Origin: Terriglobia bacterium
GTDB taxonomy: Bacteria; Acidobacteriota; Terriglobia; Bryobacterales; Bryobacteraceae
NCBI GenBank assembly: GCA_020073145.1
Contig: JAIQFS010000021.1
Location: 1-64,000, forward strand
Length of the DNA stretch: 64,000 nucleotides
Direction: 5' to 3'
In this document: in pieces, positions 58,801 through 63,989 of the stretch
Layout of the letters: the number at the start of each line of letters is the position of its first letter
Numbering within the stretch: position 1 is the stretch's first letter
Program-made: the position numbers and the translations under genes
Notes under the pieces: generated by a model
The model's database searches: none
Told to the model about the DNA's origin: nothing
The model's input: only the letters and a program-made list of their open reading frames with translations

Positions 58801-59598
58801 AAACGCTACTCGCACGGGCTGACCTTAAACGGCAACTACACGTTCTCCAAGGCGCTCGACCTGTTGAGCTCCCCCGACGTGTTCAATCCCGGCCTGGGCA
58901 AGAATCTTTCCGCCAACGACCTTCCGCACCAGTTCCGCTTCTCGGCGGAGTATCAGACCCCGCGGGCCCGGAAGGGGCTGCCTGTGATCGGCAACCCGGT
59001 GGTATCCTACGCGCTCGGCGGTTGGGGCCTCGGCGTTTATGCGCAGTACCAGAGCGCGCCGATCCTGGGGCGCCCGGCCGCCGGCTCCGCTCAACCGATT
59101 AGCGACTGGCTGGGACGCGGTCCGGGCGGCGCTCAATTGATCGCAGGCATGAGCCCATACGCCGTGAATTGGACCGACTTGAGCGGCAAAGTTCACCCCG
59201 AGCCGCTCGACATCAACTGCCACTGCTACGATCCAACCAAGACGGACGTGTTGAATCCACTCGCTTGGGCGCCGGTGCCGAACGGCCAGTGGGCCGCCGA
59301 TCAGTCGAGCATCCGCTATTACCGCGGCATCCGGCAACCGAACGAGAGCGCCAACTTGAGCCGCAACTTCCGGTTCAAAGAGCGGTATAGCCTCCAAATC
59401 CGGCTGGAGGTCAACAACGTATTCAATCGGCTGCGATTGCCGCAACCGTCCAGTGGCGGCGCGAATTTCAGCGCCGTTCCCACCTCGGCAGGCGGGCTCT
59501 ATACGGGTGGCTTCGGAACCTTCGGCAACCTGCAAACGGGCGCCGCCGCTCCCGCCCCGGCGCGCAGCGGTCTGCTCGTCGCGCGGTTTCAGTTCTAG
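55828..59598 (+). CDS. TonB-dependent receptor with N-terminal carboxypeptidase-like domain (Oar type)
   Basis: 1256 residues. Signal peptide MLKVRTIALFLAATASAALA sets the start at 55828; the longer frame to 55675 has no leader. Residues about 22-110 are a carboxypeptidase regulatory-like beta sandwich (GIVTDPAGAVVPGVTIRATH, YILTQMPIGGYTLTVEAAGF). A plug domain follows, then an outer-membrane barrel with many paired strands, ending in the aromatic residue of ARSGLLVARFQF. Receptors of this type are greatly expanded in Bryobacterales and take up or bind large substrates, perhaps oligosaccharides. No TonB/ExbBD genes are nearby. Substrate unknown. Confidence 0.9.
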   Translation: MLKVRTIALFLAATASAALAQTGLATLTGIVTDPAGAVVPGVTIRATHRETGTVLSAVASSTGNYILTQMPIGGYTLTVEAAGFKTYRREGLTLAAAQVLGLDVALEIGATTDSVTVNAEASLLTTEEASIAHNVTVSQMQNLPLLPLNGGVGSIAAFGFRDPYGLAQLIPGVQYSVNSVMVIDGKSTNSVQYRIEGQNSGLTGNLGIFTQFTQPSTDAVEEVAVQTSNFAPEFGSVGGGIFNVTMKSGTNGLHGSAYDYAVNEVLNAHQSFTHLRDADHRHDFGMTIGGPVTLPKIYNGKNKTFFFFSFEQFRTQPLVTTVSATVPTQAYRNGDFSALIPASGVNGVGRPLLVGSGASQHAYVDPLGATVLAGTIFDPYSTKSVTCGAGNPDCPAGSVLQYRSPFPNNAIPQVAPYVDPVFAKVQGLIPLPVGPNASAGALGNNFQSPFHSQRVSTLPSVKMDHNLTARSRLSFYWSYDETNAQYTPGNGAFEGFPPTITAARGTFHNSTQTRLNYDNTLSPTRVLHVGFGFVRFDFKDFSPTLDYNAQQSLGLTGATLNRLFPNFVSGSSATVGGFSTTGAAAQTTLGSERRPSATVSMTEVRGNHAVKYGAEWGEPRYPASVFTNTAGNYAFTSVVAGIAAPTGSGVTAQPALQPVTLSQGNTGFGYANFMLGGVQAVDVAVPAVYRTHRYEFALYVQDTWKVSRKLTLDYGLRWDYGTYNKEDYGRLGDLSLITPNPSAAGLPGGLVYEANCNCSFAHNYPFAFGPRLGAAYQVNSKTVLRGGVGVVYDHPQWFGAGITNDATGGAPGFGQQIFQLSSGIPFSISPQWPVYNAAIGQSPNTVIGAPALIDPNAGRPARQLQWQLSLQREISRNLVVEASYVGNRTTWAPAAALSSFNDISPALLAKYGFNVGDPNDRALLLSQVGNLTTAQKNTLAGKGFILPWASFPGSQTVRQAIRPFPQYNTSINPTAAPLGKTWYDALQVTLTKRYSHGLTLNGNYTFSKALDLLSSPDVFNPGLGKNLSANDLPHQFRFSAEYQTPRARKGLPVIGNPVVSYALGGWGLGVYAQYQSAPILGRPAAGSAQPISDWLGRGPGGAQLIAGMSPYAVNWTDLSGKVHPEPLDINCHCYDPTKTDVLNPLAWAPVPNGQWAADQSSIRYYRGIRQPNESANLSRNFRFKERYSLQIRLEVNNVFNRLRLPQPSSGGANFSAVPTSAGGLYTGGFGTFGNLQTGAAAPAPARSGLLVARFQF

Positions 59599-59725
59599 CA
59601 CCCCACTGACGCTAGAAACGGGCCGCTGCCTGCACCCCCAGGCGCGGTCCGATCCCCACGATGGCGTAGACTGGATCGAAGGCCGCGCGCCCGGGCGGGG
59701 CCAGCTTGGCGGAATGGGAACTCTG

Positions 59726-61096
59726 ATGACGCAGTGGAATAGAGCGATTGCGTGTGTGGCGCCGGCCCTGGTATCGGCGATCGTGTTGGCGGCGCCGTCC
59801 GTCTACCCGACGGGAACGACGATCTATGATCCGAGCCGCGCCTGGAGCGGCTATACCGTTCTCTCGCCCCTGGGCACTCAGGCCGCGGTGGTCATCGATA
59901 TGAACGGCGCCATCGTCAAGCAGTGGGATGGCTATGTCAATTCCGCCGGCGGCCCGGCGCGTATATTTCCCGGTGGTGTCATCGAAGGGGCGGCTGGCGC
60001 CAATCCCCCGCACCAGGAATCGCTCGAGCTGGTCGAGCGCGATTTCAGCGGTAACGTGCTCTGGCGTTTCGACCATAACGAGCAAATCGAAACCCGCGAG
60101 GGAAAGAAGATCTGGGCCACCCGGCAGCACCATGACTGGCAGCGCGAGGATTTTCCCGCCGGTTACTATTCGCCCGGCGTGACGCCCCGCATCGAGGGCG
60201 GCAACACCTTGATCTTGACCCATACCAATCGGGTGCAGCCCAAGGTGAACGCCAGCAGGATGCTCGAAGACGACCGCCTGCTCGAGGTCTCCTGGGATGG
60301 AAAGATTGTCTGGGAGTGGGTGGCGAGCGATCACATCGACGAATTCCATTTCGACCAGGACGCCCGCGCCGCCATTGCCTCGGTCCCAGCCTCCAATGCC
60401 GCGCCCGCGCGCGCCTCCTTCGATTGGTTGCACATCAACTCGGCCACCTATGTGGGGCCGAACCACTGGTACGACGACGGCGACCAGCGCTTTGCGCCGA
60501 ACAACGTGATCGTCAGCAGCCGCGAATCGTCGTTTCTGGCGATCGTGGCCCGCGATGGCTCCATCGTTTGGCAACTGGGACCCGATTTCAGCGCCTCGCC
60601 GGAACTGCGCGCGATTCGCCAGATCATCGGCCAGCATAACGCCCATTTCATTCCGAAAGGACTGCGGGGCGCGGGCAACATCCTGGTGTTCGATAACGGC
60701 GGTCCGAGCGGCTACGGAAAGCCGAGTTCCATGGCCTTAAATGGACAGGGGATTTATGCGAGGCCCACTTCGCGCGTATTGGAGATCGATCCGGTCGCGC
60801 GCAAGCTCGTCTGGTCCTACACCGCGCCTACTTTCTTCGCGACCAATATCAGCGGCGCGCAGAGGCTGCCCAATGGCAACACCCTCATCACGGAGGGTCC
60901 CGGCGGCCGCGTGTTCGAGGTAACTACCGAGGGCACGATCGTGTGGGAATACATTTATCCCGTATTCAGCGGCGCCCGATCGACCAACTCGGTTTATCGA
61001 GCCTACCGACTGCCGTACGACTGGATCCCCCAACTCACGCGTCCCCAGGAGAAAGCGGTCACGCCGCCGGAAAAAGGGCAATTTCGAGTGCCTTGA
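59726..61096 (+). CDS. Secreted arylsulfotransferase-like propeller
   Basis: 456 residues with a signal peptide (AIACVAPALVSAIVLAAPSV). It matches the arylsulfotransferase (ASST) family: AVVIDMNGAIVKQWDGY, the His-rich ATRQHHDWQRE, HINSATYVGPNHWYDD, IIGQHNAHFIPKGLRGAGN, and propeller strands ending with GRVFEVTTEGTIVWEYI. True ASST enzymes move sulfate between phenols through a His in the propeller. Several His are conserved here, but which is catalytic cannot be fixed. ATG 59726 is used; 59714 is also possible. Downstream of the TonB receptor by about 130 bases; perhaps part of the same substrate-handling locus. Confidence 0.75.
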   Translation: MTQWNRAIACVAPALVSAIVLAAPSVYPTGTTIYDPSRAWSGYTVLSPLGTQAAVVIDMNGAIVKQWDGYVNSAGGPARIFPGGVIEGAAGANPPHQESLELVERDFSGNVLWRFDHNEQIETREGKKIWATRQHHDWQREDFPAGYYSPGVTPRIEGGNTLILTHTNRVQPKVNASRMLEDDRLLEVSWDGKIVWEWVASDHIDEFHFDQDARAAIASVPASNAAPARASFDWLHINSATYVGPNHWYDDGDQRFAPNNVIVSSRESSFLAIVARDGSIVWQLGPDFSASPELRAIRQIIGQHNAHFIPKGLRGAGNILVFDNGGPSGYGKPSSMALNGQGIYARPTSRVLEIDPVARKLVWSYTAPTFFATNISGAQRLPNGNTLITEGPGGRVFEVTTEGTIVWEYIYPVFSGARSTNSVYRAYRLPYDWIPQLTRPQEKAVTPPEKGQFRVP

Positions 61097-61253
61097 GGCG
61101 AATCTCCTGGCCACTCTTCTAATTCCGCGGACCGACCACCGTTCCATCGATCCACCGGTAAGCCAGCCCATTATATTTCCGGCAATGGGTTCCACTGCTT
61201 TGAATTGGGTGCGACTATAACATTAGGGAGAGCCCTCCAGGATTCCGTCTCGC

Positions 61254-61991
61254 ATGACGCAGGCGTTGGAGCTTCGCCAGAAGGTAAATGCCGCTTATTC
61301 GGATGCGGCGGCCCATCCGGAGGGCCGCCACCCGTTTCCGGTAGGCCGCACTTTTGCGGAAGGGGTGGGCTACTCAGCGGAGATCCTCAACCGCGTCCCA
61401 TCCATTTCAGTCGAGGCATTTACGGGTGTGTCCAATGTGTCGGTTTTTGCAGAGATCGCCCGCGGCGAGAGGGTATTGGACCTCGGATGCGGCGCGGGCC
61501 TGGATTCGTTCATTGCTGCGGAGCGGACTGGTGACGGGGGACAGGTTCTGGGGATAGATTTCAGTTTCAGCATGCTGGAACGCGCGCGCCATGCTCAGTT
61601 TGAAGCCGGAGCGGAACGAGTCTCATTCGGTCAGGCTGATGCGGAAAGACTCCCTCTACCGGATGGCTCGATTGACGTCGTGCTGGTCAATGGAATCTTC
61701 AACCTCAATCCCAACCGAGCGGCCATTTTCCGCGAACTTGGCCGCGTGGTGAAGCGGGGCGGAACAGTTTTTTCCGCCGAGTTGACCGTGCGGGAGCCGT
61801 TATCGCCGGACCAGCGGGGCCGCGAATCGAATTGGTTCGCCTGAATCGCTGGGGCCAAGGAAGCGGGCGGCTTCCTCCAGGAGTTTCAAACCGCCGGATT
61901 TCCCCATCCCATTCTGCTGCGCACCTATCGCAACGCCCGAACTGTGAATCCCCTGGTTCTGGTGGCCGAAGTACGTGCCCGGCGAGAATAA
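61254..61991 (+). CDS. SAM-dependent methyltransferase with in-frame TGA, candidate selenoprotein
   Basis: Reading to the first stop gives 196 residues. The frame stays open after that TGA (61842-61844) for 48 codons to TAA at 61989-61991, and the continuation looks like the family's natural C-terminus (FLQEFQTAGF, LLRTYRNARTVNPLVLV). Full length is 245 with the TGA at residue 197, context NWFA-TGA-IAGAK; relatives are expected to have Cys there. Class-I methyltransferase motifs: VLDLGCGAGLDSFIAA, VLGIDFSFSML, LPLPDGSIDVVLVNGI, and VVKRGGTVFSAEL. The arsenite-methyltransferase/UbiE-like opening HPFPVGRTFAEGVGY fits. Either TGA is read as selenocysteine, or the gene carries a recent nonsense mutation. 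Substrate unknown. Confidence 0.72.
61858..61876 (+). promoter_or_regulatory. Possible bacterial SECIS hairpin
   Basis: AGGAAGC (61858-61864) and GCTTCCT (61870-61876) form a perfect seven-pair stem with loop GGGCG, starting 13 bases after the in-frame TGA; the loop begins 20 bases after it. G at the first loop positions and this spacing fit the known pattern of bacterial selenocysteine-insertion elements. CTGG (61849-61852) and CCAG (61877-61880) could add a lower stem. Hairpins arise by chance in GC-rich DNA, so this is supporting evidence only. Confidence 0.5.
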
Positions 61992-62270
61992 ACAAACATG
62001 GCGATGCCGTCAGCCGGTGAATGGCCCAGCGATTCGGCTCTCTTCGAATCAGATGATCCGTCGGAACATCCGCCTCTCTAGCCGTGTCGAATCACCGGTT
62101 TGAGCGATCAAATACTGAAGAAACAGTCGGGCATCTTCGTCAAGACATTGAAGCCAAAGAAGGTGTTTGGGCGAGGGCCCGGACGAGGAAACATTTGTGC
62201 AAGGCTGTCACAAAACTCGCGTGGGCGGTGATATAGCAACGTGGACGCACTGGGTCAAGCGGCTGCGCAG
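61992..62270. other. Intergenic region upstream of the sigma-factor gene
   Basis: About 280 bases. TGTCACAAAAC (62206-62216) resembles the -35 box of some extracytoplasmic sigma factors and lies 35 to 65 bases before the possible starts of the sigma gene, so it may be its autoregulated promoter. No matching -10 was identified. Nothing else recognised. Confidence 0.35.
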
Positions 62271-62795
62271 ATGAAGCCAAATGAAGAGTGGCTGGATATT
62301 GAGCGGATCTTCCGCTTACACTACACCCGCCTGGCCCAGGTGATCGCCCGGGTGGTTCGGGATCCAGCGCGCGCTGAAGAACTCGCCGTCGAGGTTTGCT
62401 TAAAGTGGTCCGCACGGCGCATCACAGACGCCGAGAATTCCGAACGCTGGTTGTACCGCGCTGCCGTGCGCAGCGGCTTAAACGAATTGCGTCACCAAGT
62501 ACGCAGGAGCCGCTATGAACGAGTGGTTTCTTTCGTACGGGGATCACCAACGCCGGAGGAACTCTTAGCAGCGCGACAGGAGCAGGAACGAGTCCGGCTG
62601 CTGTTGGCCACGATCAAACCGCGCGAGGCCGAACTCTTAGTTCTACGAAGCCAGGGATTCACCTATGAGGAATTGGCAGCGATCCTCCACTTGAATCCTG
62701 CATCGATTGGAACGCTGCTCAGCCGCGCGCAACAGACCTTTCGAAAGGAGTACACGAGGCGTTATGGAACCCCGCGACTTGGATCCAAAACGTGA
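62271..62795 (+). CDS. ECF-type sigma factor
   Basis: 174 residues from the ATG at 62271; a GTG at 62241 would add ten. Region 2 runs from IFRLHYTRLAQVIARVVRDP through AEELAVEVCLKWSAR, and region 4 contains LLLATIKPREAELLVLRSQG then FTYEELAAILHLNPASIGTL, the helix-turn-helix that contacts the -35 element. It overlaps the next gene by 32 bases, so the two are translationally coupled. Expected to direct polymerase to a small regulon in response to the state of the membrane protein encoded next to it. Confidence 0.88.
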   Translation: MKPNEEWLDIERIFRLHYTRLAQVIARVVRDPARAEELAVEVCLKWSARRITDAENSERWLYRAAVRSGLNELRHQVRRSRYERVVSFVRGSPTPEELLAARQEQERVRLLLATIKPREAELLVLRSQGFTYEELAAILHLNPASIGTLLSRAQQTFRKEYTRRYGTPRLGSKT

Positions 62796-63531
62796 ACTCA
62801 ACGTCGCCGAGTGGGTGGACCATGAGATGGCCTCACTTGGTCACGAGGAGTGGCAGCCGGACCTGCACAGGGGCCTGGCGCTGCTTCGCGCGCCGAGCGG
62901 AACAACCGGGAGCCGCCGGCGGTGGACCTGGGCCGCCGCAGCTGTCCTGGCGACTTGTTTTTCTCTGATGGCCATGCCGGGCCCACGCGCCTTCGCCGAA
63001 CGATGCGTCTCCGCCTGTGTGAGCGGAACCGGATGGATCCGGGAACTTCTCGCGGGTGGCGCGTCGGGCCCGACTCCGAGTAACGTCTATGTCAAACCCG
63101 GAAACCGGACCATGGCCCCCGATTTCGCGCTCGAGGATGCGAGCGGTCAGCCCGTGCGGTTATCGCAGCTTCGGGGAAATGTTGTGCTGGTGAACTTCTG
63201 GGCTACCTGGTGTGCTCCGTGCCGGGTTGAAATTCCGATGCTCCTCGGGTTCGAGAAGACCTATCGAGATCGCAACTTTAAAATTCTCGGAATTGCTCTC
63301 GATGACGGCGGCTGGAGCTTGGTTCGGCCCTACGCAGACGCCAGAAACATCAGCTATCCGATCCTGCTTGGCAACCAAGGGATTGCCGATCTCTTCGGGC
63401 TCAAAGCCGTACCCACGACGTTCGTTATCGATAGGCAGGGGCGGATTGCCGCAACGCACATCGGCCTTTGCCAGAAGAGCGAGTACGAAGGCGATATCAA
63501 AGCTGTACTGAATGAAAGAATCACACCATGA
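62764..63531 (+). CDS. Membrane-anchored TlpA-like thioredoxin with anti-sigma-like cytoplasmic tail
   Basis: 255 residues. ATG 62764 has GAGG six bases upstream and overlaps the sigma gene. The first 65 residues are hydrophilic and would face the cytoplasm (NVAEWVDHEMASLGHEEWQP); one helix follows (TWAAAAVLATCFSLMAM), then a periplasmic thioredoxin domain: APDFALEDASGQPVRLSQLR, NFWATWCAPCRVEIPML (C150, C153) and AVPTTFVIDRQGRIAA with the cis-Pro. The position and topology match an anti-sigma factor, so the redox state of CAPC might control the sigma factor. The thioredoxin part is certain, the anti-sigma role is inferred. Confidence 0.85.
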   Translation: MEPRDLDPKRELNVAEWVDHEMASLGHEEWQPDLHRGLALLRAPSGTTGSRRRWTWAAAAVLATCFSLMAMPGPRAFAERCVSACVSGTGWIRELLAGGASGPTPSNVYVKPGNRTMAPDFALEDASGQPVRLSQLRGNVVLVNFWATWCAPCRVEIPMLLGFEKTYRDRNFKILGIALDDGGWSLVRPYADARNISYPILLGNQGIADLFGLKAVPTTFVIDRQGRIAATHIGLCQKSEYEGDIKAVLNERITP

Positions 63532-63989
63532 AGAACTTACTTCGAGCCGGGTCCCTCGTGGCGGGTCTTGCCATCGCTGTTTTCAGTTCCGGAAAGAGTG
63601 GGCCATCTCCGGCCATCGACGTGGACCAAGCCTCCGCGAGTCCTCACCTGTCCGGATGGATGGCAAGAATCACGATGCGCGACGGGACGACGCGCACGGT
63701 CAAGTTGGAGGGCGTCGGGTGCACCCGAAGCATTTGTTCCAGGACGGCGATCAAGGCCAGATCTGAATCCGATTCGGTGGTGAGGACCTGGTTCGACGTT
63801 CTGGCCGCAATCCAGGACACGACGTCTCGCGACGCTCTGTTTGTCATGAAAGATGGCACGAAGAAGCGAATGTCGCTGCTCACCGATTTTCGAGTACTGT
63901 ACCTTGCCAATCGTTTCGGCGGGCCGGAGAGGCTGGACCTAGGAGCCGTACAGTCGGTTGAGTTTGTTACGCTGGCGGGCCTGAGGTGA
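63528..63989 (+). CDS. Small secreted protein with a CX4C pair, function unknown
   Basis: 153 residues; its ATG overlaps the TlpA gene's stop (ATGA), so it is coupled to it. Signal peptide MKNLLRAGSLVAGLAIAVFS. The mature part is beta-rich, with two related segments, MRDGTTRTVKLEGVGC and MKDGTKKRMSLLTDFRVLYL. It has only two Cys, C65 and C70 (GCTRSIC), which could form a disulfide. Being encoded directly after a periplasmic thioredoxin, it is a natural candidate for that protein's partner. No family recognised. Confidence 0.75.
   Translation: MKNLLRAGSLVAGLAIAVFSSGKSGPSPAIDVDQASASPHLSGWMARITMRDGTTRTVKLEGVGCTRSICSRTAIKARSESDSVVRTWFDVLAAIQDTTSRDALFVMKDGTKKRMSLLTDFRVLYLANRFGGPERLDLGAVQSVEFVTLAGLR

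Follow-up and report, generated by a model that had tools for sequence, protein, structure and literature searches.

The window, that is, the whole 64,000-nucleotide stretch of DNA analysed here, carries on its forward strand a putative selenoprotein methyltransferase gene (61254..61991). The frame begins at the ATG at 61254 and runs through 196 codons to an in-frame TGA (61842..61844, forward strand), past which it stays open for 48 more codons until the TAA at 61989-61991. If this TGA, the codon of residue 197, is read as selenocysteine (Sec), the product is a protein of 245 residues, an assignment based on the readthrough translation, on Pfam and on 52 homologues. The codon lies in the context NWFA-TGA-IAGAK, in which U-I-A-G represents a UxxG motif, and it aligns with Cys224 of CmArsM and Cys206 of AS3MT. 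Two other segments of the same strand are of interest: the SAM-binding motif I (ERVLDLGCGAGLD, 61467..61505), which contains the invariant Cys79, and the sequence VNGIFNLN (61686..61709), in which Gly147 replaces the ArsM arsenic ligand Cys174/Cys156. A weak putative Shine-Dalgarno-like AGGA can be read from the sequence 11 bases 5' of the ATG (61239..61242, forward strand).

Upstream of the methyltransferase lies a gene of the arylsulfotransferase family (ASST, 59453-61096, also delimited as 59576-61096), whose own stop codon is TGA. Downstream are encoded a sigma-70 region 4 protein (62241-62795), an AhpC/TSA-type thioredoxin-like protein with an additional N-terminal part (62764-63531), and a small protein with no Pfam match (63528-63989). 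No arsenic genes were found among these neighbours.

The in-frame TGA and the selenocysteine machinery

Codon patterns run against 84,980 species genomes yielded 55 relatives, 52 of which cover the TGA site (51 including the frame-shifted L056 and L058, plus the frame-shifted L057, which was checked separately). All 52 loci have TGA at the codon of residue 197, and their hosts belong to at least seven phyla, including Acidobacteriota, Chloroflexota, Methylomirabilota, Myxococcota, Planctomycetota and Nitrospirota. None of the 52 has Cys at this site, even though the sole search pattern spanning it was built on Cys codons. When 396 genomes of the phylum were searched with a profile that ignores this codon, six genes were retrieved from five genomes, every one of them with a single internal TGA. 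Furthermore, the genome from which the window derives holds a paralogue (L072, G000 C21:371444-372178) that is 82% identical and keeps the TGA; it adjoins a serine/threonine-kinase-like gene. Comparison of the paralogue with the window gene gives a dN/dS of 0.35 for the codons preceding the TGA and of 0.10 for those following it, which indicates that the downstream part is translated and subject to selection. The earlier note had described the frame that continues for 48 codons past 61842-61844, and its coordinates proved exact.

According to these data, it is very improbable that the TGA represents a premature stop, whether in a pseudogene, through a sequencing or assembly error, or as the natural end of a 196-residue methyltransferase. 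Under the standard code there is indeed a 196-residue open reading frame that retains the SAM-binding core, but the TGA occupies the identical codon in 52 independent loci and in the paralogue, purifying selection is stronger after it than before, and truncation would delete the last strands of a fold predicted with high confidence. Both a sequencing error and a genuinely truncated gene, which the earlier note regarded as fatal to its proposal, are excluded by the 82%-identical paralogue and the 52 homologues. Least credible of all is a reassignment of TGA, or its reading by a suppressor, that would make residue 197 Trp, Cys or Gly, because, although the methyltransferase frame stays open under reassigned codes, TGA ends 9 of 48 family genes as well as the neighbouring ASST gene and thus still functions as a stop, the host genomes possess Sec machinery, and a constrained hairpin lies 3' of the codon. 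Truncation, pseudogene, sequencing error and code reassignment have consequently all been rejected.

The window genome (6.32 Mb in 88 contigs, 100% complete) encodes SelA and SelB, each scoring over its cutoff, and a tRNA-Sec above the gathering score with anticodon UCA (ARAGORN). SelD is also over its cutoff, and its gene has an in-frame TGA of its own (VKAAG-TGA-ASKL) followed by a predicted stem-loop. The presence of SelA, SelB, tRNA-Sec and SelD identifies the organism as a Sec user independently of the methyltransferase gene. The earlier note had named selA, selB, selC and selD as the genes to be sought, and all of them are present. SelA was detected in 48 of the 53 genomes hosting the family versus 248 of 392 in the phylum (Fisher p 3.6e-5), a difference that is indicative only, as the two sets are of unequal taxonomic composition and count two or three genomes twice. 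The five host genomes in which SelA was not found include incomplete MAGs. In the Planctomycetota genome that hosts L039, the SelA match itself has one internal TGA (G426 C353:463-1812), which may be an assembly fault.

The hairpin downstream of the TGA

Starting 13 bases 3' of the TGA, the forward strand contains a predicted hairpin of the bacterial SECIS type (61858..61876; AGGAAGC, loop GGGCG, GCTTCCT), characterized by folding, covariation and synonymous recoding. Its stem consists of seven pairs (61858-61864 with 61870-61876) enclosing the loop at 61865-61869, which confirms the seven-pair stem and G-first loop that the earlier note had pointed out. This hairpin has an MFE of -11.1 kcal/mol and a z of -1.2, and 24 of 200 shuffled sequences fold equally well, so that by itself it is only mildly unusual; chance is ruled out by comparison rather than by the single sequence.

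In the first of two alignment registers, with 43 sequences, 94.8% of pair cells are standard and four of the eight pairs have changed on both sides; none of 500 shuffles matched the observed pairing percentage or covariation score, and slid controls are 48-65% paired. The second register, shifted by one base (8 sequences), is 87.5% paired, with pair 21-30 appearing as GC, UA and AU. As the hairpin region also encodes the conserved peptide KEGGAFL, it was compared with synonymous recodings that keep the protein fixed and follow the codon use of each gene. The natural hairpins are more stable than their recodings (mean z -1.71 in 47 genes, 20 of them at or below 5%; -1.44 for the window gene by itself), while seven other positions in the same genes give z from -0.33 to +0.28. 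This excess stability reveals that the RNA structure is under a constraint additional to that on the protein.

In the proposed decoding, the hairpin would recruit SelB with Sec-tRNA, and UGA codon 197 would be decoded as selenocysteine to give the 245-residue selenoprotein. The original suggestion that residue 197 is Sec is now supported by the TGA in 52 of 52 loci, the paralogue, the Sec machinery and the constrained hairpin, and on this comparative evidence Sec incorporation at the codon is judged practically certain. As a whole, the gene is read as encoding a full-length SAM methyltransferase whose residue 197 is Sec, with a probability of roughly 0.94.

Protein family, active site and relatives

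Pfam places class I SAM methyltransferase domains on the window protein, and its identity as a SAM methyltransferase is very highly probable. In NCBIfam, its top hits are PRK11873 and three fusions of the double-selenoprotein type, all well under cutoff, and none of the models in release 20 gives this protein a score over the cutoff. The score on PRK11873 (NF008823) is 152.9 bits versus a curated cutoff of 263, and the protein fails the UbiE/MenG equivalog test (60 bits versus cutoffs of 158-216). AlphaFold2 on 43 family members gave a mean pLDDT of 92.3; the solved structures that best match the predicted model are those of CrArsM and CmArsM (Z 25.1, 24.6 and 23.8), with AtmM, RebM and phosphoethanolamine methyltransferases ranking under them at Z of about 20-21. 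The earlier grouping with arsenite methyltransferases was therefore right, as judged by the NCBIfam and structural matches, and can be refined by the absence of two arsenic ligands.

In CmArsM, arsenic is bound by Cys72, Cys174 and Cys224, and in human AS3MT by Cys61, Cys156 and Cys206 (PMC4211708). The profile alignment to CmArsM, in which residue numbers were counted by hand, equates Cys224 with Sec197, Cys174 with Gly147 and Cys72 with Val59. Val59, Cys79, Gly147 and Sec197 are invariant in 43 of 43 subfamily members, Cys79 and Sec197 being the sole invariant chalcogen residues. One published criterion for ArsM demands three or more of the four conserved Cys residues (CmArsM 44, 72, 174 and 224; PMC5552862), of which the subfamily retains only 224, as Sec. 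Having lost two of the three arsenic ligands, these proteins are not standard ArsM by published criteria, even though they are built like ArsM, and arsenite is for the same reason an unsafe substrate assignment.

Canonical ArsM genes, with Cys at the equivalents of both 147 and 197, occur in the same genomes as the family, and the window genome carries two such ordinary Cys-type ArsM genes. One of them, on C18, adjoins two frames identified by eye, one ACR3-like (a transporter) and one arsC-like; this arsenic cluster (G000 C18, about 128000-132417; L074, L001) has selB within about 2 kb. A second group, clade B (HFHxG...SNG...LWTxUIxGAL), shows Gly at the equivalent of residue 147 and TGA at the equivalent of residue 197. 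In two Chloroflexota, a gene of clade A, the window family, is followed in tandem by a clade B gene (L086 and L085, in the hosts of L031 and L043). Clade B members L085-L089 score 227-251 bits on the NCBIfam fusion models, nearer than the window family, and still miss the cutoffs. When homologues were aligned at residue 197, as the earlier note had suggested, TGA was found across the subfamily; Cys appeared in all 14 canonical ArsM rows and in one clade B relative, L090 (in the host of L055), which has a natural Cys (LWTGCIAGG) where its clade B relatives have TGA. L090 and those relatives constitute a useful natural Sec/Cys pair for experiments. In a quick maximum-likelihood tree rooted at the midpoint, a branch with SH-aLRT 99 separates the stand-alone family from the other sequences, and another, with 93, sets ArsM apart; the row labelled B that falls within clade A belongs to the frame-shifted L056.

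A search for a conserved operon that might point to the function gave weak signals only, with none of the partners located beside the window gene. In 6 of the 37 neighbours scanned, a gene of the nucleosidase type (PNP_UDP_1, PF01048) is immediately adjacent, which would be in keeping with the turnover of SAM products, albeit unspecifically. Other neighbours in the family are a phosphonate-binding-type ABC transporter and radical SAM proteins (three loci each) and, in a few cases, cation-efflux genes.

Possible substrates and known selenoprotein methyltransferases

Sec197 would sit where ArsM has its active-site Cys and holds arsenic beside the methyl group of SAM. Its selenolate may act as ligand or nucleophile, holding a soft electrophilic metalloid or organometalloid by a single Se bond, so that the bound atom could accept the methyl group of SAM. 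Candidate substrates would be an already methylated trivalent arsenical or a species of Se, Te, Sb or Hg. According to PMC3877260, arsenite binds three Cys residues, methylarsenite two and dimethylarsenite one, and a single-ligand site would accordingly be expected to suit an organometalloid better than arsenite. That the substrate is a metalloid or organometalloid can be given slightly less than an even chance; against it count the absence of arsenic genes next to the window gene, the loss of two arsenic ligands out of three, and the two ordinary Cys-type ArsM genes in the genome. It is tentatively postulated that the Sec-only subfamily diverged from the ArsM superfamily by losing the three-thiolate arsenite site and keeping one selenolate, which would serve a non-arsenite substrate. 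Such a substrate might be an organometalloid held by one ligand, or else a species of selenium or tellurium, and its methylation may proceed via a transiently methylated Sec.

Two other functions have been considered. Sec197 could instead be a nucleophile or redox switch, perhaps together with Cys79, in an enzyme methylating a small organic or thiol/selenol substrate. The invariance of these two chalcogens (43/43) and the presence of AtmM, RebM and phosphoethanolamine methyltransferases in the structural list (Z about 20-21) speak for this possibility, which is nonetheless unlikely, given that ArsM outranks the small-molecule methyltransferases structurally; besides, Cys79 belongs to SAM motif I, and since a Cys is found there in CmArsM too, it calls for no special role. 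It is rather improbable, too, that the protein methylates As(III) as ArsM does, with Sec just substituting for one Cys of an otherwise ordinary arsenite methyltransferase. This would agree with the ArsM fold and best structural matches, with the alignment of Sec197 to a key arsenic-binding Cys, and with the UxxG arsenite methyltransferase selenoproteins already known (PMC13188914). Against it, the ligands Cys72 and Cys174 are invariantly replaced by Val59 and Gly147, so that the three-of-four-Cys rule (PMC5552862) does not hold, PRK11873 scores 152.9 versus 263, two Cys-type ArsM genes already exist in the genome, and ars genes are absent beside the window gene.

With Sec as its only remaining ligand, the subfamily provides a lead toward an unknown metalloid or selenium methylation step. 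With no Cys version found among its loci, it also offers a direct test of the role of selenium in SAM chemistry. Methyltransferases with selenocysteine are uncommon. Fomenko 2007 is the reference cited for the verified arsenite methyltransferase selenoprotein, and the NCBIfam fusion models go back to Haft and Tolstoy 2025. Routine gene calling stops at TGA, and a methyltransferase from at least seven phyla can therefore be filed as a truncated protein.

The GOS survey contained 8 sequences of arsenite S-adenosylmethyltransferase selenoproteins (PMC2398784), another count arrived at 41 in 39 organisms (PMC5029168), and a 2026 review gives the UxxG arsenite methyltransferase as experimentally verified, along with the fusion families (PMC13188914, Table 1). 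Sec at such a position is thus already known. In the literature compared, no description of a stand-alone Sec-only subfamily was found, and the deep-Sep paper does not mention methyltransferases. The subfamily, with its single conserved arsenic-site ligand, appears to be new, although members may already figure in Fomenko 2007, in Haft and Tolstoy 2025 or among the arsenite methyltransferase selenoproteins counted in the works cited above.

The arsenite methyltransferase selenoproteins (ArsM/PRK11873, UxxG) are likewise SAM methyltransferases with one Sec at a C-terminal active-site position; in contrast, the window subfamily reaches 152.9 bits of the 263 required and is without two of the arsenic-binding Cys residues. 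The N-terminal methyltransferase domains of ArsM_AhpD_UU (NF041537), ArsM_DUF2284_UU (NF041536) and MTase_UXPK_star (NF047649) are collinear with the window protein, which scores 185.9, 158.3 and 170.3 bits on them versus cutoffs of 510, 575 and 460; the match is confined to the methyltransferase portion, and the protein differs in having only one Sec and no second domain (AhpD, DUF2284 or UXPK-star) with further Sec. CmArsM, CrArsM and human AS3MT share its predicted fold (Z from 25.1 down to 19.2 across some 200 residues), with Cys224/Cys206 matching Sec197. Compared with these enzymes, the window protein has lost two of three arsenic ligands, would carry Sec in place of Cys, and has a shorter C terminus (245 versus 377-387 residues).
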